Shown one piece after another: positions 9,839 through 25,013 of a DNA stretch of 64,000 nt; within the stretch, counting starts at the first letter, position 1; every line of letters starts with the position of its first letter. Below the pieces are notes generated by a model. It saw only the letters and a list, made by a program, of their open reading frames with translations. It had not been told where the DNA came from and ran no database searches. The stretch lies in NCBI GenBank assembly GCA_009845425.1, contig VXZQ01000014.1, positions 62,001 through 126,000 of the forward strand. Direction: 5' to 3'. Both the position numbers and the translations under genes were made by a program. Source of the stretch: Holophagales bacterium (GTDB lineage Bacteria > Acidobacteriota > Thermoanaerobaculia > Multivoradales > Multivoraceae).

Positions 9839-9860
9839 GGTGCCGCCCTCAGGCGGCGCC
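9839..9860. terminator. Hairpin at the convergent PKD gene / leuB junction
   Basis: GGTGCCGCC, CTCA, GGCGGCGCC form a 9-bp stem with one G-T wobble. The loop includes the leuB stop codon. It lacks a T-run on either side, so it is a weak candidate for a shared terminator. Confidence 0.35.
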
Positions 9861-10919
9861 GATCCTGCTGGCGATGGCCTGGCCCATCTCGGTCGTCGAT
9901 ACGGCGGCCTGGCCGTCGGGCGCCAGATCGGCGGTACGGAGCCCGTCGTCCAGAACCTTGGCGACCGCCGCTTCGACCCGGTCCGCCTCCGCGCTCAGGT
10001 CGAGGCTGTGGCGGAGCAGCATCGCGGCGCTCAGGATCGCGCCGATCGGGTTGGCGATGCCGCGGCCCGCGATGTCGGGCGCCGAGCCGTGGACCGGCTC
10101 GTACAGGCCCTGGCTGCCTGAACCTAGCGACGCCGAGGGCAGCATGCCGAGCGACCCCGCGAGGATCGCCGCTTCGTCGCTCAGGATGTCGCCGAACATG
10201 TTGCCGGCGAGGATGACGTCGTAGTCCGCGGGCGAGCGCATCAACTGCATCGCGAAGGCGTCCACGAGGTGGTGGGTGACCTCGACGTCCGGCCAGGCGC
10301 TGGCGACCTCAGTCACGGATCGCCGCCAGAGCCGCATTGAGGCGAGCACGTTCGCCTTGTCGATCGACGCGACCTTGCCGCGACGTCCCCGCGCCGCTCG
10401 CAGCGCGACCCGGGCGACGCGCTCGACTTCGGCGGTGGAGTAGACGAGGGTGTCGTGGGCCACGTCGCCGTCGCCCTGCTCCTGGCGGGGACCGAAGTAG
10501 ATGCCGCCGGTCAGCTCGCGCACGAACAGCAGGTCGACTCCGCGCAGCAGTTCGGGCTTGAGCGGGGCGAACGGAGCGAGGGATTCGAACACCGGTACCG
10601 GGCGCAGGTTGGCGAACAGGCCCATCTCCGCCCGCAGGTCGAGCAGCCCCTGTTCGGGCCGGAGTTCGGCGGTCGGATCGGACCACTTCGGTCCGCCGAC
10701 GGCGCCCAGGAGCACCGCGTCCGCCTCCTTGCACGCGACCAGCGTGGCGGGCGGCAGCGGATTCCCGAAGTCGTCGATCGCGTTGCCGCCCATCGGGTGG
10801 GACTCGAGCTGGAAGCCGTGCCCGCCGAGTTCGGCGACGGCGTTCAGGACGCCCGCCGCTTCCGCGGTGACTTCCGGCCCGACGCCGTCGCCGGGCAGGA
10901 GGACGATGTTCGCCTGCAT
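9849..10919 (-). CDS. leuB: 3-isopropylmalate dehydrogenase
   Basis: 356 residues. It oxidatively decarboxylates 3-isopropylmalate to 4-methyl-2-oxopentanoate with NAD in leucine synthesis, and the 3-methylmalate analogue if citramalate feeds the pathway. The start ATG at 10919 gives the family N-terminus [13 protein letters not shown]. Substrate-site residues appear in ELTGGIYFG, the catalytic Lys in [10 protein letters not shown], and the metal-binding Asps in [15 protein letters not shown]. Cofactor-loop [14 protein letters not shown] is typical of NAD use. It is the last gene of the ilv-leu operon, 14 bases after leuD. Confidence 0.96.
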
Positions 10920-10933
10920 GGGGAGTCGTTCGC

Positions 10934-11557
10934 TCAGTCCGAACGGGTATCGAGCCGCGCCGCGTTGGCGGCCTCGAAAGCCTGGATCGCAGGCGCCTGG
11001 TTCAGCAGGTAGCCGAGCTGGTCCGTGCCGTCGAGCAGGCAGCGGCGGGCGAAGGGGTCGACCTCGAAGTTCGTCTCGCCGCCGCCGGGCAGGCTGAGGG
11101 TCCGCGCTTCGAGATCGATCGTGACCTCGGTTGCCGGATCGGCGGCGACGGCGTCGAACAACGCGGCGGAGACGTCTTCGCCCACCGGCACGACGAGCAG
11201 TCCGTTCTTCAGTGCGTTGCTGCGGAAGATGTCGGCGAAGGAGGTGCTGATGACCGCGCGGAAGCCGTAGCCGACGAGCGCCCAGGGCGCGTGCTCGCGG
11301 GAGCTGCCGCAGCCGAAGTTGTCGCCGGCGAGGAGAATCCTGGCCTCGCCGTGTTCGGCGCGGTTCAGCACGAAGTCGGAGATGGGATCGCCTTCCGGGT
11401 CTCCGTCCCGGTAGCGCCAGCGGGAGAAAAGGCCGGAGGCGAGGCCGCTGCGGTCGGTGACCTTCAGATAGGACGCCGGGATGATCTGGTCCGTGTCGAT
11501 GTTCTGGATCGGCAGCGGCGCCATGGTCCCGGTGTAGCGGGTGAAGCTCTTGCTCAC
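10934..11557 (-). CDS. leuD: 3-isopropylmalate dehydratase small subunit
   Basis: 207 residues from a GTG start at 11557 that overlaps the leuC stop (GTGA), implying translational coupling of the two subunits. It forms the swivelling domain of isopropylmalate isomerase; family motifs are [14 protein letters not shown], the [17 protein letters not shown] phosphate/substrate loop and [15 protein letters not shown]. The length is normal for bacterial LeuD. The heterodimer with LeuC can also isomerise citramalate in the isoleucine branch, which matters because cimA lies at 23.5 kb. Confidence 0.96.
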
Positions 11558-12975
11558 GACAGGACCTCTCGCACATCGGTGACCCGACCGGTAATGGCCG
11601 ACGCTGCCGCGGTCAGCGGGCTGGCCAGGAAGGTGCGGCCACCGGCGCCCTGGCGGCCCTCGAAGTTGCGATTCGACGTGCTGACGGCGTACTGGCCGGG
11701 GGCGAGCTGGTCGCCGTTCATCGCCAGGCACATCGAGCAGCCGGCTTCGCGCCACTCGGCGCCGGCGTCGACGAAGACCTGGGCGAGCCCGTCGCGTTCG
11801 GCCTGCCGCTTGACCGCGTCGGAGCCGGGCACGATGAGCACCCGCAAGCCGTCGGCGACCTTGCGGCCGCGCAGCACGTTCGCCGCGGCCTCCAGGTCGC
11901 TGTAGCGCGAGTTCGTGCAGCTTCCGACGAAGACGACGTCGATCGGCTTGCCCTGGAGCTGCTGGCCGGGTTCGAGGGCCATGTAGTCGAGCGCCTTGCG
12001 GAAGGAGGCCCGCTTCTCGGGTTCGATGGCGTCGTCTTCCGGTACCGCTCCCGCGATTGGGATCGCCATGCCGGGGTTCGTGCCGTACGTGACCATCGGT
12101 TCGAGCGCCGAGCCATCGAGAGTCGTGGTCCGGTCGTAGACCGCTCCCTCGTCGGTGGGAAGCGACCGCCAGTCGTCGAGCGCCGCCTCCCAGGCATCGC
12201 CGGCGGGCGCCATCGGACGGCCCTCCAGGTACGAGAAGGTGACCTCGTCGGGAGCGATCAGGCCGGCGCGGGCGCCGCCCTCGATCGACATGTTGCAGAC
12301 CGTCATCCGGCCCTCCATGTCCAGCGCGCGAATCGCTTCGCCGGTGTACTCGAAGACGTGGCCGGTGCCGCCGCCGATGCCGAGCCTGGCGATCACGGCG
12401 AGGATGATGTCCTTGGCGACCACGCCTTCCGGCAGGCGGCCGTCGACGCGCACCTCGTAGGTCTTCGGGCGGTGCTGCAGCAGGCACTGGGTGGCGAGCA
12501 CGTGGCCGACCTCGCTGGTGCCGATGCCGAAGGCGAGCGCGCCGACGGCGCCGTGGGTGCTGGTGTGGCTGTCGCCGCAGACGACGGTCATTCCGGGCTG
12601 CGTGGCGCCGAGTTCCGGTCCAATCACGTGAACGATGCCGCGGCGCTCGTCGCCCATCGCGTAGAGCGGGATGCCGTGCCGCTCGCAGTTCGCCTGCAAT
12701 CGGTCGAGTTGGGCGGAGCCCTCCGGGTCGAGCACCCGGAGCCGTGCGTCGTCGATCGAAGGATCGGTCGGCGTCGAGTGGTCCATCGTCGCCAGCGTCA
12801 GATCGGGCCGGCGCACGGGGAGCCCCCGCTCGTCCAGCCCGGTGAACGCCTGAGGCGAAGTTACCTCGTGCACCAGGTGCAGGTCGACGTAGATCGTCGC
12901 GGGCAGACCCTCCTTCCCCGCGGTGACCAGGTGGCGCCGCCAGATCTTCTCGAACAGGGTCCTCGGTCGACTCAT
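11554..12975 (-). CDS. leuC: 3-isopropylmalate dehydratase large subunit
   Basis: 473-residue aconitase-family subunit carrying the [4Fe-4S] cluster. Cluster ligands are visible in [18 protein letters not shown] and in [12 protein letters not shown]. The N-terminus [12 protein letters not shown] is typical of LeuC. The start codon overlaps the leuA stop (ATGA), and the stop overlaps the leuD start (GTGA). It catalyses the dehydration-rehydration of 2- to 3-isopropylmalate in the cytosol. Confidence 0.97.
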
Positions 12976-14591
12976 GCGTCCACCGGCTGCGGTCTCGAGA
13001 CCCTGAGCGTGGCGGGGCCTCCCTCGCCGGCCGTGTACTTGGTGCCGATCGCGGTGAGCATCCGGTTGAGAGCCGCCAGGTACGCCTTGGCGGAGGCGAC
13101 GATGACGTCCGTGTCTGCGCCGTAGCCGCCGAAGACGCGCCCTTTGCCGCGGCCGGAGGTCGGACTCTTGATTCTCACCGTGACCTCGCCCATCGCGTCG
13201 ATGCCCTCGGTGACGCTGTGGACGTTGTACTCGAGCAGGGTGTTCCTGGCTTCGACCACGGCGTCGATGGCCCGGAAGGTCGCGTCGACCGGGCCGGTGC
13301 CGACGCCGGGCGAGATGTACTCGTGACCGTTTGGCCCGCGCAGACGGGCGGTCGCGGTCGGCATGCCGGGCCGTCCGCAGGAGATCTGCAGGTCGGTCAG
13401 GGTGAAGATCTCCGTCGGCGCCAGGATCTCCTGGTTGGCCAGCGCCTGCAGGTCGGCGTCGGTGATGTCCTTCTTCTGGTCGGCCAGTTGCTTGAAGCGG
13501 CGGAAGGCCTCACCAAGTTCTTCCCGGTTCAGCTCGAAGCCGAGTTCCTCCATGCGCATCCGGAGCGCGTGCTTGCCGGAGTGCTTGCCGAGCACCAGCC
13601 TGCTCTGAGTCAGGCCGACCGTCTGCGGGGTCATGATCTCGTAGGTGCGCTGATCCTGGAGCATGCCGTGCTGGTGGATGCCCGCCTCGTGGGCGAAGGC
13701 GTTCTCGCCCACGATCGCCTTGTTCCGGGGCACCGCGATGCCGGTGTAGTGGGCGACCAGGCGACTCGTCCGTACGAGTTCGGTCGTGTTGAGACGGGTG
13801 CCGACGCCGTAGATTTTCGGCCTCGTGTGGAGCGCCATGACGACTTCCTCGAGCGAGGTGTTGCCGGCGCGCTCGCCGATGCCATTGATCGTTACCTCGA
13901 CCTGCCGCGCGCCGGCCTCGATCGCCGCCAGCGTGTTGGCGGTGGCGCAGCCGAGATCGTCGTGGCAGTGCGCGGACCAGATGACGTCTTCGGCGCCGTC
14001 AGTGTGCTTCATCAGGTAGCGGAAGAGGTCGCCGTACTCGACCGGCATGTCGTAACCCACCGTGTCCGGGATGTTCAGCGTCGTGGCGCCTTCCTTGACG
14101 GCGAGCGAGAGCACCTCGACCACGAAGTCGGGATCGGAGCGGCTGCCGTCCTCGGGACTGAACTCGACGTCGTCGCAGAGGGAGCGCGCGTGTGCCACCA
14201 TGTGGCCGACCTGGCTCAGAACCTGCTCCCGGGTCATGCCCAGCTTGCGGTCCATGTGCAGGTCGGACGTGGCGATGAAGGTGTGGATGCGGGGTTTGGC
14301 GGCGTCCCGCACGCCCTGCCAGGCCTTGTCGATGTCCTCGCGCCAGCAGCGGGCGAGCCCGGCGATGACCGGTCCGTCGCCCTTGCCGACTTCGCGGGCG
14401 ATCCGGCGGACCCCCTCGAGGTCGTCGGGACTGGCGGCGGGAAAGCCCGCCTCCATGATGTCGACGCCGAGAACTGCAAGCTGGCGGGCCACCTCCAGCT
14501 TCTCGGCGCTCGTCATCGTCGCGCCCGGCGACTGCTCGCCGTCGCGCAGCGTGGTGTCGAAGATCCGGACCCAGTCTCCGTTGTCTGGCAT
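12972..14591 (-). CDS. leuA: 2-isopropylmalate synthase
   Basis: 539 residues starting at an ATG preceded by GGAGGTG, a strong ribosome-binding site. It condenses acetyl-CoA with 2-oxoisovalerate, the committed leucine step. The TIM-barrel domain shows [28 protein letters not shown] and [15 protein letters not shown]. The C-terminal region, including [17 protein letters not shown], is the regulatory LeuA dimer domain, so leucine feedback is expected. The gene stands 2 bases after ilvC and overlaps leuC by 4 bases. Confidence 0.96.
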
Positions 14592-14593
14592 TG

Positions 14594-15595
14594 CTACACC
14601 TCCTTGGCGTCCAGGAACGGCATCATCCGCCGCAGTTCCCGGCCGACCTCCTCGATCGGGTGGCTCCGCTCCCGCTTTCTCCGGGGATCGAAGCGCGGAC
14701 GTCCGTTCCGGTTCTCGGCGATCCAGTCGCGGGCGTAGGTCCCGTCCTGGATGTCGCGGAGCACCTTGTCCATCACCGCCCGCACGTCCTCCGTGATCAT
14801 CTGGTCGCCGGCGTGGTAGCCGCCGTGCTCGGCGGTGTCGGAGACGCTGTACCACATGTAGCCGAGCCCGCCCTCGTACATCAGGTCGACGATCAGCTTC
14901 AGCTCGTGCAGGCACTCGAAGTAGGCGACCTCGGGCTGGTAGCCGGCCGCGACCAGCTTCTCGAAGCCGGCGCGGACCAGGGCGGAGGCGCCGCCGCAGA
15001 GGACGATCTGCTCACCGAACAGGTCGGTCTCCGTCTCCTCGGCGAACGTGGTCTCGATCACTCCGGCGCGGGTGCAGCCGATCCCCTTCGCGTAGGCCAG
15101 GGCATCGGCCAGGGCGCCACCGGTGGCGTCGTTCTCGACCGCGACCAGGCCCGGCGTGCCGGCGCCTTCGGTGAACACCTCCCGCACCCTGTGTCCCGGT
15201 GCTTTCGGCGCGACCAGGGACACGTCGACTGCCTGCGGCGCGTCGATTTCGCCGTAGCGGACGTTGAACCCGTGCGCGAACATCAGGGTGTTCCCCGGTT
15301 CGAGGTTCGGCGCGATGTCCTGCTCGTAGAGCCCCGCCTGCACCGTGTCGGGCGCCAGGACCATGATCATCTGCGCCCGCGCGGCCGCGGCCGCGTTGCC
15401 GAGCACCTCGAGCCCGTCGGCCTCCGCCTTGGCGGCGCTGCCGCTGCCCTCACGCAGACCGACGACGACGTCGACTCCGCTGTCGCGCAGGTTCAGCGCA
15501 TGGGCATGGCCCTGGCTGCCGTAGCCGATGACGGCGACGGTGCGGCCGTCGAGCCTCGCAAGATCCGCGTCGTCGTCGTAGTAGAGCTTGGCCAT
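14594..15595 (-). CDS. ilvC: Ketol-acid reductoisomerase
   Basis: 333 residues from the ATG at 15595. The N-terminal Rossmann domain reads [21 protein letters not shown]. The knotted C-terminal domain carries the Mg-binding [12 protein letters not shown] and [17 protein letters not shown]. It converts acetolactate and acetohydroxybutyrate to the dihydroxy acids of valine and isoleucine synthesis. This is the short class I type. The next enzyme, ilvD, is not in the window. Confidence 0.97.
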
Positions 15596-16209: not shown

Positions 16210-18135
16210 TCAGACGCCGAATCGGGAGCCCAGGGCGGCCGCCGCCGCGGGTTCCTCGGACTCCGACGGCTTGGATTCCGGCGGCGTGGACTCTGGAGTT
16301 TGGGGCTCCGGGGCTTTCGCGGCTACTGCCCGCTCCCGGCGCTGTTGCTCGAACTCTTCGGGAGTCGGCCGGCGGATCATGTCGTCCAGGTCGGCGCCCG
16401 CCGGCACCATGGGAAAGACGATCTCCTCCTTCTCGACCACGAAGTCGATCAGGGTCGGTCCGGCTGTCTGCGAGCGCGAGGCCTTGACCGCCTCTTCGAT
16501 CTGGCCACGCTCGCTGACGCGGACGGTCGGGATGCCGTAGGCCTCCGCGAGCTTGCAGAAGTCCGGGTTGACCATGGGCGTCTGGTTGTACCGCTCCTCG
16601 TAGAAGAACTCCTGCCACTGGCGGACCATGCCGAGGAAACCGTTGTTGATGATCGCGATGTGGACGTTGACCTGCTCCTGGACCGCGGTGGCGAGCTCCA
16701 TCATGGTCATCTGGAATCCGCCATCGCCGACGATGGCCCACACTTCCTGGTCGGGGCGGGACATCTTGGCGCCGATCGCAGCCGGCAGCCCGAAACCCAT
16801 CGTGCCGAGGCCGCCGCTGGTGATCAGGCTGTGCGGCCGTTCGTGGTGGTAGTACTGGGCCTCCCACATCTGATGCTGGCCGACGTCGGTCACGGTGATG
16901 GCCTCGCCGTCCGTGAACTCGAACAGGTCCCGGATGACCTGGGCGCCGAGCAGCTTGCCTTCGGGGACCGCGGGATGCTGCGGCGCGTCGGCCGGCCGCA
17001 CGATTTCCCGCAGCTCCGAGTCGGCGCGCCACTCGGCGATGCGGTCGAACCAGGCCTCGTTCGGTCGTCGTTCGACCCGGTCGAGCAGTTGGCTCAGGAC
17101 CTCGCCGAGGTCACCGACGATGCCCACGTCGACGGTCACGTTCTTGTTGATCTCGGAGGGATCGATGTCGACGTGGATCTTGCGCGAGTCCCGGGCGTAG
17201 GTCGCCAGGTTGCCGGTCACCCGGTCGTCGAAGCGCATGCCCAGGGCGATCAGCAGGTCGGCCTGCTGGATCGCGTGGTTCACCTCGGCGCCGCCGTGCA
17301 TTCCCATCATCCCCAGGCAGAGCGGGTGGTGTTCGGAGATCGCGCCCTTGCCGAGCAGGGTCAGGGCGATCGGAATCTGCGCCTTCTCCGCCAACTGTGC
17401 GAGTTCACGGTTGGCGCCGGCCATCGAGATGCCGTGGCCGGCGAGGATGATCGGCCGCTTGGACTTCCGGATCAGTTCCAGGGCCGCGTCGACCTGGCGC
17501 GCCCGGGCCGCCCGCGGCGGGCTGTAGCCGGGGAGTTCGATCGGTTCCGTCGGGTAGACGAACTCGGCCTCCTGGATCTGGACGTCCTTCGGGATGTCCA
17601 CCAGCACCGGCCCGGGCCGCCCGGTGCGGGCGATGTGGAACGCCTCGCGCATCACCTCGGGCAGCTCCTCGATGCTCGTCACGAGGTAGTTGTGCTTGGT
17701 GATCGGGAGGGTGATCCCGGTGACGTCCGTTTCCTGGAAGGCGTCGCTGCCGATCGCGCCGGTCGGCACCTGTCCCGTGATGCAGACGATCGGAGAAGAG
17801 TCCATCATCGCGGTGGCGATACCGGTGACGAGGTTCGTTGCGCCGGGGCCGCTGGTCGCCATCGCCACGCCGACCTTGCCGGTGGCGCGGGCGTAGCCGT
17901 CGGCCATGTGCGACGCGCCCTGTTCGTGGCGGGTCAGCACGTGGTGGAGCTGGGGGTACTTCGTCAGGGCGTCATAAGTGGGCAGGATGGCCCCGCCCGG
18001 ATAGCCGAAGACGATGTCGACCCCCTCGCGCAGCAGGCACTCGCACACGATCTCGGCGCCGGTCAGCACGACGGCGTCCGTGCTCGTGCCCGCTTCCTCG
18101 TTCGCTTGGTCCGTTGCGGTCGTTTCGTCACTCAT
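16210..18135 (-). CDS. ilvB: Acetolactate synthase catalytic subunit
   Basis: 641-residue thiamine-diphosphate enzyme making acetolactate or acetohydroxybutyrate. Landmarks: [16 protein letters not shown], catalytic Glu in [16 protein letters not shown], and the ThDP/Mg motif GDGGFQMT with [13 protein letters not shown]. The last about 45 residues form a Pro/Ser/Glu/Ala-rich extension beyond the usual end (after EEFEQQRRE) with no known role. Length without the tail is normal. It follows ilvE by 15 bases. Confidence 0.96.
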
Positions 18136-18150: not shown

Positions 18151-19107
18151 TCACCCGGCCAGGGGCGGTGCGGCCTCCTGCAGCCGGGGTACCTGGGTGA
18201 GCCAGTTGTGGCGGTCGGGGAGCCGGCCCTCGACCAGCCCGAAGAACTCCTCCTGGAGGTGGTGCGTGATCTCGCCGCGCGTGCCGCTGCCGATCGGGAT
18301 CCGGTCGACGGAGCGCACGGGACTCACCTCGGCCGCGGTGCCGGTCATGAACAGCTCGTCGGCGAGATAGAGCTCTTCCCGGGCGATCGGCTGGAAGCGG
18401 ACGTCGTACTTCAGGTCGCGGGCGATCGTGATGACCGAGTCCCTGGTGATGCCGCCCAGGATCGAGTTGTAGAGCGGCGGCGTGTGGATCACTCCGTCCT
18501 TGATCAGGAAGAGGTTCTCACCGGCGCCCTCGCAGACCAGCCCGCGGTCGTCGAGCATGATGCCCTCGGCGTAGCCGTGCTCGCGTGCCTCAATGGACAC
18601 GAACTGGTTCGTCACGTACTGCCCGCTGATCTTGCCCAGCGGCACGGCCGTGTTCGAGTTGAAGCGCCGCCAGGAACTGATCGCGGCGTCGACGCCCTGT
18701 TCGATCGCCTCCTCGCCGAGGTAGCGGCCCCACCGCACGGCGTAGATGGCCAGCCTGGAACTGCAGGAAGTGGGATTGAGGCCCATTTCCTCGTTGCCCC
18801 GGTAGATCAGCGGGCGGATGTAGCACGACTCCAGGCGGTTGCGGGCCACCGCCTCGATGCACAGCTCCTCGACCTGGTCCTGGGTGTAGCCGGGGTCCAT
18901 GCGCATGATCCGGCAACTGTCGAACAGGCGCCGAACGTGGGGACCGAGGCGGAAGATCGCCGTCGTCTCGCCCGTGTCGTAGGCGCGGATCCCCTCGAAC
19001 ACCGACGAACCGTAGTGCAGGCCGTGGGTGGTGAGGTGGACGGTCGCTTCGTCCCAGGGCTTCCACTGGTCGTCGATCCAGATCCACTCTGATCGTTCTA
19101 TGGGCAT
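18151..19107 (-). CDS. ilvE: Branched-chain amino acid aminotransferase
   Basis: 318-residue fold-type IV PLP enzyme for the last transamination to Leu, Ile and Val. The PLP lysine is Lys159 in PLGKISGQYVTNQF. Other landmarks are THGLHYGSSVFEGIRAY near residue 30, SCYIRPLIYRG, and CEGAGENLFLI with the phosphate-binding GGITRDSVITIA. It is the first structural gene behind the attenuator; the start ATG at 19107 is preceded by GGAG at a 9-base spacing. Confidence 0.96.
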   Translation of the reverse strand: MPIERSEWIWIDDQWKPWDEATVHLTTHGLHYGSSVFEGIRAYDTGETTAIFRLGPHVRRLFDSCRIMRMDPGYTQDQVEELCIEAVARNRLESCYIRPLIYRGNEEMGLNPTSCSSRLAIYAVRWGRYLGEEAIEQGVDAAISSWRRFNSNTAVPLGKISGQYVTNQFVSIEAREHGYAEGIMLDDRGLVCEGAGENLFLIKDGVIHTPPLYNSILGGITRDSVITIARDLKYDVRFQPIAREELYLADELFMTGTAAEVSPVRSVDRIPIGSGTRGEITHHLQEEFFGLVEGRLPDRHNWLTQVPRLQEAAPPLAG

Positions 19108-19133: not shown

Positions 19134-19162
19134 AAAAAAGCCCCCAGGCGGTGCTGGGGGCT
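19134..19162 (-). terminator. Intrinsic terminator of the ilv-leu attenuator
   Basis: Read on the minus strand, AGCCCCCAG and CTGGGGGCT form a perfect 9-bp stem with a 6-base loop, followed directly by a run of T. It lies between the leader peptide and ilvE, so it would stop transcription before the operon. The first arm (complement of 19156-19162) can instead pair with GGGGGCT at 19198-19204, at the end of the leader peptide codons. Confidence 0.92.
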
Positions 19163-19191
19163 TGAAGTCGCTCAGTTTCCTGTTGGTGCGC

Positions 19192-19260
19192 CTAGTTAGC
19201 CCCCTGGGTCACAAGGACCAGAACCAGAACCAGCAACAGAAGAATGGCGGGACGAGTCAT
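19192..19260 (-). CDS. Branched-chain amino acid leader peptide (attenuator)
   Basis: A 22-codon frame from the ATG at 19260 to TAG at 19192. It begins MTRPAI and continues with four Leu, then alternating Val and Leu codons, ending VTQGAN: 12 of its 22 residues are Leu or Val, plus one Ile. It precedes a strong intrinsic terminator and ilvE by the spacing of classical ilv/leu leaders. Ribosome stalling in the Leu/Val run would leave GGGGGCT (19198-19204) free to form an antiterminator; completion of the peptide would cover it and permit termination. No clear Shine-Dalgarno is seen. A 5-bp hairpin, CTACC-GGGC-GGTAG at 19282-19295, lies just upstream. Confidence 0.88.
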   Translation of the reverse strand: MTRPAILLLLVLVLVLVTQGAN

Positions 19261-19307
19261 GGGATAAGGAAATCCGTTGATCTACCGGGCGGTAGGTCGT
19301 GCGGGGG

Positions 19308-19337
19308 AGCGTAGGAGAGGAGAGGAGCGGCTGTCAA
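19308..19337 (-). promoter_or_regulatory. Promoter of the ilv-leu operon
   Basis: On the minus strand a perfect -35 box TTGACA (complement of 19332-19337) is followed after 18 bases by TACGCT (complement of 19308-19313), a weak -10. Start of transcription would be near 19300, about 40 bases before the leader peptide. The -35 box overlaps the stop codon of the upstream serine hydrolase. Confidence 0.6.
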
Positions 19338-20401
19338 GGGGCCTGCCCAAGGAGCAACCGGCGGATCCGGCCAGTGACCTCTTCGGATCGGGCGTCGTTC
19401 ACGAACAGGCAATACAGCAGGTCGTCGCGGTCGGGGAAGAAGTTCAGGTCGGCGAAGAAGAAGCCGTTGCCGCCGTTGTGGCCGATCATCCGCTCGCCGT
19501 TCGGGAGGTGGAAGGTGACCCATCCGTAGCCGTAGAAGGAGTCGCCGTAGCCCTCGTCCACGTGTTCGCCGAACAGGGCGTCGAGCGACTCGGCGTCGAG
19601 CACTTCACCGCCGCGCAGGGCCCGGACCCAGCGGGCCATGTCCTCGATGGTCGAGTGAATGCCGCCGTTGCCGACCAGGTGCCACGAGAAGCCGTCTTCG
19701 TCGGTCTGCTTGTCGGTCACCCGGCCGAAGCGGCGGCCGTCCCGGTAGCCGGCGGCGAGGTGCGCTTCGGACCAGTCGGCCAGGCGGTAGCCGGTGGCGC
19801 TCATGCCCAGCGGGTCGAAGAACTCCCGCCGCAGGAACTCCTCGTAACTCGTGCCGGAGCTCAGTTCGATGATCGCGGCGAGCACGGAGTAGCCGGTGTT
19901 CGAGTAGTCGTGGCGTTCGCCCGGCGGGTAGTGCAACTCGGTGCGCCAGACCGCTTCGAGGTAGTCGTCGCGGCTGATGTACTCCTCGTCCGAACCGAGC
20001 GCGGGAGGCAGGCCGGCGGTGTGGGTGAGTAGCTGGTGGATCGTGATCCCGGCCTGGTCGGGGGGCGCATCTGGGAAGAAGCGGCCGACCGGATCGTCGA
20101 CGCGCAGGCGCCCCCGCTCCTGGAGCCTGAGGATCGCGGCGCCGGTGAACTGCTTTGTGATCGATCCGATCGTGGACACGGTCTCCGGCCGGAAGGGCAC
20201 GCCGGCTTCCCGGTCCGCCAGGCCGTAACCGGCCCGGTGGAGCACCTCGCCGCCCCGGGCCACCAGCACGCTGCCGGCGAAGCCTCCCGCCGCTTCCTCC
20301 AGCAGGAGGTCGTCGAGGCCGGTGGTGTCGGCCGTGGGCGGAGTGGCGCACGCGGCGGCGAGCGGGATGGCCGCGAACAGCGCGCGACTCCTGGTCGTCA
20401 T
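19334..20401 (-). CDS. Beta-lactamase-family (class C fold) serine hydrolase
   Basis: 355 residues from the ATG at 20401 (an ATG ten codons upstream is possible). The N-terminus is a signal peptide with an AAAC that may be an imperfect lipobox, so the protein is exported and perhaps lipid-anchored. Catalytic motifs of the family are complete: SITK (Ser80, Lys83), YSN in HDYSNTGYSVLA, and GHNGG near the C-terminus. Likely a D-aminopeptidase, esterase or carboxypeptidase-like enzyme rather than a true resistance lactamase. It stands upstream of the ilv operon promoter, in the same direction, and diverges from the SNF2 gene. Confidence 0.88.
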   Translation of the reverse strand: MTTRSRALFAAIPLAAACATPPTADTTGLDDLLLEEAAGGFAGSVLVARGGEVLHRAGYGLADREAGVPFRPETVSTIGSITKQFTGAAILRLQERGRLRVDDPVGRFFPDAPPDQAGITIHQLLTHTAGLPPALGSDEEYISRDDYLEAVWRTELHYPPGERHDYSNTGYSVLAAIIELSSGTSYEEFLRREFFDPLGMSATGYRLADWSEAHLAAGYRDGRRFGRVTDKQTDEDGFSWHLVGNGGIHSTIEDMARWVRALRGGEVLDAESLDALFGEHVDEGYGDSFYGYGWVTFHLPNGERMIGHNGGNGFFFADLNFFPDRDDLLYCLFVNDARSEEVTGRIRRLLLGQAP

Positions 20402-20449
20402 CGTCAGGAAGCCTAGCGCCGAAACCAACACAACGCTCCGAATCGGCGC

Positions 20450-23453: not shown

Positions 23454-25013
23454 ATGACGACCAGGATCGAGCTGTACGACACGACGCTCCGCGACGGAAC
23501 CCAGCGCGAGAACATCTCTCTGTCGCTGGCGGACAAGCTGGCAATCGCCAGACGGCTGGACGCTTTCGGTATCCCCTACCTCGAGTGCGGCTGGCCCGGT
23601 TCCAACCCCAAGGACGCCGACTTCTTCGCCGCGATCCGCGAGGTCGAACTCGAGCAGGCGAAGATTTGCGCGTTCGGCAGTACCCGCCGCAAGAACGACA
23701 CCTGCGCCCACGACGGCAACATCCAGGCCCTGGTGGCGGCCGGAACGCCGGTGGTGACGATCTTCGGCAAGAGCTGGGATCTCCATATCGAGAAGGTCCT
23801 GGAGACCGAGATCGCGGAGAACGAAGCGATGGTCCGGGACTCGGTCGGCTACCTCAAGGAGCTCGGACGCGAGGTGATCTACGATGCCGAGCACTTCTTC
23901 GACGGTTTCGCCGCGAATCCCGAGTGCGCTCTCGGCACCCTGCGCGCCGCGGCCTCCGCGGGCGCCGACTACGTCGTGCTCTGCGACACGAACGGCGGTT
24001 CCCTACCGTGGCAGATCGAGGCCGGCGTCGAGGCGGTGCGAGCCGAACTCGGCGACCAGGCGCGGATCGGCATCCACACCCACGACGACGGCGGCTGCGG
24101 CGTGGCCAACTCGCTTGCCGCCGTGCGTGCCGGTGCCGTCATGGTGCAGGGCACGATCAACGGCTACGGTGAGCGGGTAGCGAACGCCAACCTGGTCACC
24201 ATCCTGCCCGACCTGCAATGCAAGATGGGCTGTTCCTGCGTCCCCGACGAGCGACTCCGGGAGTTGACGGCCCTCTCGCGCTACGTCGCCGAGGTGGCGA
24301 ACATCACGCACGACGACCATCTGCCCTATGTCGGCCGGAGCGCCTTCGCGCACAAGGGCGGCGTCCACGTCGCGGCCATGCTGAAGGAGCCGGCGAGCTA
24401 TCAGCACCTGGAACCCGAACGCGTGGGCAACGAAATGCGCGCCGTGGTCTCCGAGCTCTCGGGCCGCGGCAACATCGCTCATCTCGCGGCGGGCGCCGGG
24501 ATCAGGGAGACCCCCCACGCGCGTGAGGTGCTGTACAAGGTCAAGGAGCTGGAGAACCGCGGCTACAGTTTCGAGGCCGCCGAGGCGTCCGTCGAGCTCA
24601 TGCTGCGACGGGCGGAACCGGGCTATGAGGCGCCGTTCCGCCTGATCGACTTCCTCACCGTGGTCGAGCACCGCGATGGTCGGGGCCTCGTCGCCGAGGC
24701 GACGGTCAAGGTCGAGGTGCCGGACGGCACGATCGCCCATACGGCCTCTGAGGGCAACGGCCCGGTCAACGCGCTGGCGCACGCGCTGCGCAAGGCGCTG
24801 GAGCCGCACTACCCGGCCCTGGGCGAGATGCGGCTCGCCGACTACAAGGTCCGCATCCTGGACAGTGCCCAGGGCACGGCCGCGACGACCCGGGTGCTCG
24901 TGGATTTCGTCGCCGGCGGCCAGCGCTGGACCACGGTCGGTGCGGGCACGAACATCATCGAGGCGAGCTGGGAGGCCCTCTCCGACGCGATCGAGTTCGG
25001 CTTGACGTCCTGA
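23454..25013 (+). CDS. cimA: (R)-citramalate synthase
   Basis: 519 residues. The barrel motif YDTTLRDGTQRENISLSL, GSTRRKNDTCAHDGN, HTHDDGGCGVANSLAA and NGYGERVANANL identify the citramalate synthase branch of the isopropylmalate/homocitrate synthase family rather than LeuA. A C-terminal LeuA-type regulatory domain is present (ASEGNGPVNALAHALRKAL). It condenses pyruvate with acetyl-CoA; with LeuCD and LeuB this yields 2-oxobutyrate and so isoleucine without threonine deaminase. It starts 25 bases after the SNF2 gene and converges on gcvP with a 16-base gap. Confidence 0.94.
   Translation: MTTRIELYDTTLRDGTQRENISLSLADKLAIARRLDAFGIPYLECGWPGSNPKDADFFAAIREVELEQAKICAFGSTRRKNDTCAHDGNIQALVAAGTPVVTIFGKSWDLHIEKVLETEIAENEAMVRDSVGYLKELGREVIYDAEHFFDGFAANPECALGTLRAAASAGADYVVLCDTNGGSLPWQIEAGVEAVRAELGDQARIGIHTHDDGGCGVANSLAAVRAGAVMVQGTINGYGERVANANLVTILPDLQCKMGCSCVPDERLRELTALSRYVAEVANITHDDHLPYVGRSAFAHKGGVHVAAMLKEPASYQHLEPERVGNEMRAVVSELSGRGNIAHLAAGAGIRETPHAREVLYKVKELENRGYSFEAAEASVELMLRRAEPGYEAPFRLIDFLTVVEHRDGRGLVAEATVKVEVPDGTIAHTASEGNGPVNALAHALRKALEPHYPALGEMRLADYKVRILDSAQGTAATTRVLVDFVAGGQRWTTVGAGTNIIEASWEALSDAIEFGLTS

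Follow-up and report, generated by a model that had tools for sequence, protein, structure and literature searches.

Evidence for a ribosome-mediated attenuator upstream of a branched-chain amino acid operon in Acidobacteriota

What governs transcription of the ilvE–leuB operon in this Holophagales bacterium? We analyzed a 64-kb window, by which we mean the whole 64,000-nucleotide stretch of the contig, from the genome of an acidobacteriotan host (class Thermoanaerobaculia), 4.3 Mb in 17 contigs. The original prediction, made from the letters of the window, placed a complete transcription attenuator directly upstream of the operon. Considering anatomy, conservation, cross-lineage co-variation and folding together, we put the probability at roughly 0.92 that this region is a ribosome-mediated transcription attenuator sensing charged Leu-, Val- and Ile-tRNA.

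The leader region and its operon

All eight genes of the predicted operon were recovered on the minus strand, each by an NCBIfam model above its cut-off: ilvE, encoding branched-chain aminotransferase and the first structural gene (18154–19107; TIGR01122/NF005146); ilvB and ilvN, the large and small subunits of acetolactate synthase (16213–18135, TIGR00118; 15637–16179, TIGR00119); ilvC, ketol-acid reductoisomerase (14597–15595, TIGR00465); leuA, 2-isopropylmalate synthase (12975–14591, TIGR00973); leuC and leuD, the large and small subunits of isopropylmalate dehydratase (11557–12975, TIGR00170; 10937–11524, TIGR00171); and leuB, 3-isopropylmalate dehydrogenase (9852–10919, TIGR00169). According to these assignments, the genes make leucine, valine and isoleucine, the same amino acids that make up the codon run of the leader described below. 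A citramalate synthase gene (23454–25013, plus strand; TIGR00977) lies 4 kb from the operon and could supply a threonine-independent route to isoleucine; our leader detector found no leader before it. Within 1.5-kb flanks, no convincing attenuators were found before ilvD, hisG or trpE in the genus, although hisG and trpE are perhaps not the first genes there, and the matches that did appear there were rejected because they resembled chance ORFs.

Direct reading of the minus strand from 19337 to 19107 located the leader ORF, the antiterminator and the terminator where they had been predicted. The leader ORF (19192–19260, minus strand) comprises 22 codons (MTRPAILLLLVLVLVLVTQGAN), starting with an ATG at 19260 and ending in a TAG at 19194–19192, and the predicted Leu/Val run consists of 12 consecutive Ile/Leu/Val codons, codons 6–17. 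Its last codons contain the expected GGGGGCT (19204–19198), the 5′ strand of a 7-bp antiterminator whose partner, AGCCCCC at 19162–19156, is a shared segment that, by sequence and folding, can pair either with GGGGGCT or with the 3′ arm of the terminator. As in classical attenuators, an intrinsic terminator (19134–19163, minus strand) stands between the leader and ilvE. It reads AAGCCCCCAG (19163–19154)–CACCGC–CTGGGGGCTT and is followed by a T-run ending at 19134; the terminator, T-run and coordinates agreed with the original prediction, and the stem proved to be 10 bp rather than 9 bp. When the 64-kb window was searched for a leader joined to a terminator, the ilvE leader was the single instance.

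A putative sigma-70-type promoter, TTGACA-18-TACGCT, occupies 19308–19337 on the minus strand, with the −35 element TTGACA at 19337–19332 and, after an 18-nt spacer, the −10 element TACGCT at 19313–19308. The predicted −35 was present and the whole arrangement recurred unchanged in the genus members scanned, but the −10 is weak, matching TATAAT at 3/6 positions, and a generic promoter scan made no call for it; we therefore regard the promoter as plausible. It would give the leader a 5′ UTR of 41 nt, and no Shine-Dalgarno sequence was present 5′ of the leader ATG.

The −35 hexamer (19332–19337) overlaps the stop codon of an upstream serine-hydrolase-like gene (19334–20431) transcribed in the same direction, so transcription from that gene may enter the attenuator. 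This layout invites a simpler account, in which a plain 5′ terminator ends transcripts of the upstream gene and the hydrophobic ORF is a chance frame of no function. Such an account also draws on the modest 7-bp complementarity, which in the window alone reaches p ~0.035 by shuffling. The weight of the case rests on comparison with other genomes.

Conservation and co-variation among relatives

We first considered the genus. Named records give the relatives as MAGs of Acidobacteriota under the labels Holophagales, Thermoanaerobaculia or ‘Candidatus Multivorans thiocomprendens’, many of them presumably sponge-associated, judging from their sample names. The element precedes ilvE in 20 other genomes of the genus, and in all 20 the leader frame, the GGGGGCT/AGCCCCC pair and the terminator are kept, so that no relative was found with the terminator but without the leader frame. 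The predicted Leu/Val codons were likewise retained in these genomes, the run being partly eroded in L022, where several Leu codons have become Pro while the terminator and GGGGGCT are retained. Variable columns of the codon run fall at codon positions 1, 2 and 3 in the ratio 7/1/9, and 17 of the 20 variant codons remain codons for Leu, Val or Ile; by this measure, the frame of the leader is kept and its substitutions follow a coding pattern. The distance from stop to terminator is 27–28 nt, with exceptions in L007 (32 nt), in which the frame ends differently because of an insertion and its stop falls on the antiterminator, and in L022 (45 nt). A second clade, L016–L021, has longer frames, the nearest ATG lying 54–57 codons before the stop.

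Both stem segments are nearly invariant within the genus, which makes co-variation there uninformative; we therefore compared families. The sample consisted of the window plus 100 branched-chain amino acid (BCAA) loci taken at class and phylum level, giving 101 loci, 1.48 Mb and 40 families. In the class-level genome search, 97 of 139 genomes had no match to the large subunit of acetolactate synthase at E ≤ 1e-80; BCAA auxotrophy or diverged enzymes may explain many of these. Our detector asked for an intrinsic terminator preceded, at ≤80 nt, by the end of an ORF with ≥8/12 I/L/V codons, and ignored the antiterminator altogether. It returned 37 leaders upstream of BCAA genes, defined as ≤700 nt 5′ of such a gene on its own strand, and 1 elsewhere, although this zone accounts for 6.2% of what was searched (binomial P = 5.5e-44). 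The 37 leaders came from 35 loci in 17 of the 40 families, with a median stop-to-terminator gap of 27 nt (range, 21–44). Because the detector is conservative, having missed L023/L086, in which a leader is visible and the T-run is broken, 35/101 loci is a lower bound on prevalence. The gammaproteobacterial loci from the first search also carried leaders before ilv genes, as expected there.

Three further observations came from this survey. In L155 (10161, minus strand), a leader and terminator with a GGATGATG antiterminator do not lie ahead of any gene recognised as belonging to BCAA synthesis; this may be an orphan attenuator, or it may regulate some other gene. In L050 (9717, plus strand), on a contig labelled Anaerolineae (Chloroflexota), ilvE is preceded by a candidate BCAA leader with a terminator. 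Finally, an Acido-Lenti-1 RNA (Rfam RF01687) lies near an acidobacteriotan BCAA operon in L168 (10019–10065, minus strand).

The antiterminator, whose complementarity had played no part in detection, proved to differ between lineages while remaining matched to its partner. Pairs included GGGGGCT/AGCCCCC, CCGGGGGTT/AACCCCCGG, GGATGATG/CATCATCC, TGACGGC/GCCGTCA and GGGTGACGGCC/GGCCGTCACCC, among others, positioned from ~18 nt before to a few nucleotides after the leader stop. With one leader per family, native leader-by-terminator complementarity scored 395, while the highest of 50,000 permutations reached 370; with all 42 leaders, it scored 813, compared with a maximum of 704.5 in 20,000. The compensatory stem changes anticipated by the original prediction are thus found between families, above all shuffles. 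In several families, the antiterminator takes in the UGA of the leader itself. The GGATGATG or TGAYGGC type of antiterminator (L109, L112, L113, L115, L148, L132, L164, L179 and L181) recurs in several families, mostly with the TGA stop of the leader within it. As read from these sequences, the codon run, the stop, the antiterminator and the terminator change together from lineage to lineage, and the differing antiterminators suggest that the same switch has been rebuilt repeatedly.

These comparisons largely refute the account of a plain 5′ terminator and an ORF arising by chance, to which we give very little weight: the frame is kept with coding-type substitutions, the combination of leader and terminator is almost confined to the regions upstream of BCAA genes, and the antiterminators are matched even though their sequences differ. 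We consider it equally improbable that the leader mainly aids ilvE translation by reinitiation, with termination secondary. Leader genes near structural genes are common, Acidobacteria included, but their frequency peaks at a distance of ~10–13 nt (PMC4833913), whereas here ~85 nt separate the leader stop from the start of ilvE, and a strong terminator lies in that interval.

Least probable of all is that the terminator answers to a ligand-binding riboswitch or to a T-box, the latter a known control of BCAA genes in Firmicutes, and that the ORF is incidental. Although ppGpp riboswitches can govern ilvB in other bacteria (PMC10272879), no Rfam family matched the window at gathering, no riboswitch- or leader-type Rfam element was found at gathering in 12 related loci, and what is conserved is a codon run with an antiterminator/terminator pairing rather than a large fold. 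None of the Rfam leader families, such as Leu_leader and Phe_leader, reached gathering in the window; in a relaxed scan, the best match was Phe_leader, which scored 22.9 bits where 55 are required. We read this as a similarity of layout, without membership of the family.

Predicted switching by ribosome position

Ribosome-mediated attenuation was favoured by this cross-lineage co-variation and also by folding with a ribosome placed at successive codons. For this analysis, the window transcript was cut before the 3′ arm of the terminator. With the ribosomal A site at codons 6–14, the predicted probability of the antiterminator was 0.79–0.99; depending on the assumed footprint, it was 0.70–0.99 at codon 15 and 0–0.83 at codon 16, and with the ribosome further along, between codon 18 and the stop codon, it was ~0. 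Switching occurs where the codon run ends, and the values beyond that point agree with the proposal that the leader stop is placed so that a terminating ribosome masks GGGGGCT. In both sequence and folding, the antiterminator and the terminator exclude each other, as originally claimed. When the full-length transcript was folded to equilibrium, the terminator prevailed even with a stalled ribosome (P 0.85–0.95); the decision would therefore have to be kinetic, made during transcription.

A coarser measure, in which the whole 5′ arm of the terminator was scored as paired with anything upstream, counted 37 of the 44 leaders as switching and 7 as not passing. The value for the window by this arm-wide measure went down from 0.82 to no lower than 0.49, since the arm remains able to pair with other upstream bases; the E. 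coli leuL positive control dropped from 0.55 to 0.01.

Folding without a ribosome gave a different picture among relatives. In the window, the leader is predicted to sequester GGGGGCU and the predicted probability of the antiterminator is 0.03, compared with 0.84 in L006 and 0.91 in L016. The sequestering 1:2 protector hairpin, UUCUGUUG with CAACAGGAA, is predicted in the window but not in L006, L016 or most other leaders. Since it is not kept in these relatives, we left it out of the proposed mechanism.

From these results, we infer that leader translation, stalling, termination and readthrough occur in vivo as follows. RNA polymerase would start near 19301, and a ribosome would translate the 22-codon leader. 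A shortage of Leu-, Val- or Ile-tRNA would stall the ribosome at codons 6–16 and leave GGGGGCU (19204–19198) free to pair with AGCCCCC (19162–19156) once the latter has been made, blocking the terminator hairpin so that the operon is transcribed. When the amino acids are plentiful, a ribosome at the UAG would cover GGGGGCU, the AAGCCCCCAG/CUGGGGGCUU hairpin would form, and transcription would end near 19134.

Other leaders in the comparison may begin translation differently. In a promoter scan, 16 of ~38 leaders had an in-frame ATG 2–7 nt after the estimated transcript start (for example, L088, L090, L093, L094, L105 and L114), an excess with P ~1e-14 under a simple random model and for an interval chosen after seeing the data. 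This pattern suggests that ~16 of the comparative leader ORFs are leaderless. Tandem arrangements also occur upstream of ilvD: two genomes carry two complete modules of promoter, leader and terminator (L091, 11882 and 12461; L094, 12732 and 13177; all minus strand), and a third carries two leaders (L149, 10056 and 10343, minus strand). Each tandem leader in L091 and L094 has its own predicted promoter, both of good consensus in L091. It is conceivable, at somewhat under even odds in our estimation, that BCAA attenuators across the phylum are two-state and often leaderless, some in tandem, having no protector hairpin, so that an untranslated leader reads through and only a ribosome reaching the stop causes termination.

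Relation to known attenuators

The attenuator in the window is real as a sequence element and looks functional, and its phylum-wide distribution appears to be unreported. Regarding novelty, the original prediction that the finding was undescribed needs dividing. The mechanism itself is well known, also outside Proteobacteria, leader-peptide attenuation of BCAA genes having been described in Proteobacteria and Actinobacteria (PMC1262725, PMC10272879). In the open literature, almost no attenuator functions have been assigned in Acidobacteriota, and our search, whose coverage stopped short of Lopatovskaya et al. 2010, found no report of an acidobacterial leader peptide or BCAA attenuator. What appears to be new is the spread of the mechanism through Acidobacteriota.

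This adds a further phylum to those with leader-peptide control of BCAA synthesis and provides an attenuator with its sensed signal and with parts open to experiment for uncultured sponge-associated bacteria and for 17–20 of the 40 sampled acidobacteriotan families. As different families use different antiterminators, suggesting repeated rebuilding, the group should be useful for studying how attenuators evolve and whether a leader that lacks a Shine-Dalgarno sequence or a 5′ UTR alters the default state of the switch.

Several known systems invite comparison. The ilvB-OMG and Leptospira ilvB motifs are BCAA-codon-rich uORFs before ilvB and have been proposed as attenuators in several phyla (PMC10272879); no Rfam family matched such an element in the window or in the 12 related loci at gathering. 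Corynebacterium glutamicum ilvBNC (ilvB-II motif) shares a BCAA leader peptide and a terminator/antiterminator switch with the window, but it belongs to Actinobacteria, governs ilvBNC only and includes an anti-antiterminator hairpin in its model. Its leader has no ribosome binding site and starts one nucleotide from the transcript start (PMC11857589), unlike the window leader with its predicted 41-nt 5′ UTR; the ~16 apparently leaderless comparative leaders resemble it in this respect. The enterobacterial leaders of E. coli and its relatives, ilvL (ilvGMEDA), ivbL (ilvB) and leuL, have in common with the window a BCAA codon run, an antiterminator and an intrinsic terminator before BCAA genes, and leuL of E. 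coli behaved like the window in the same folding test. In contrast to these enterobacterial attenuators, the lineage described here has no conserved protector hairpin, its leader is unrelated in sequence and has no Shine-Dalgarno sequence, and ilvE-ilvBNC-leuACDB would be governed as one unit.
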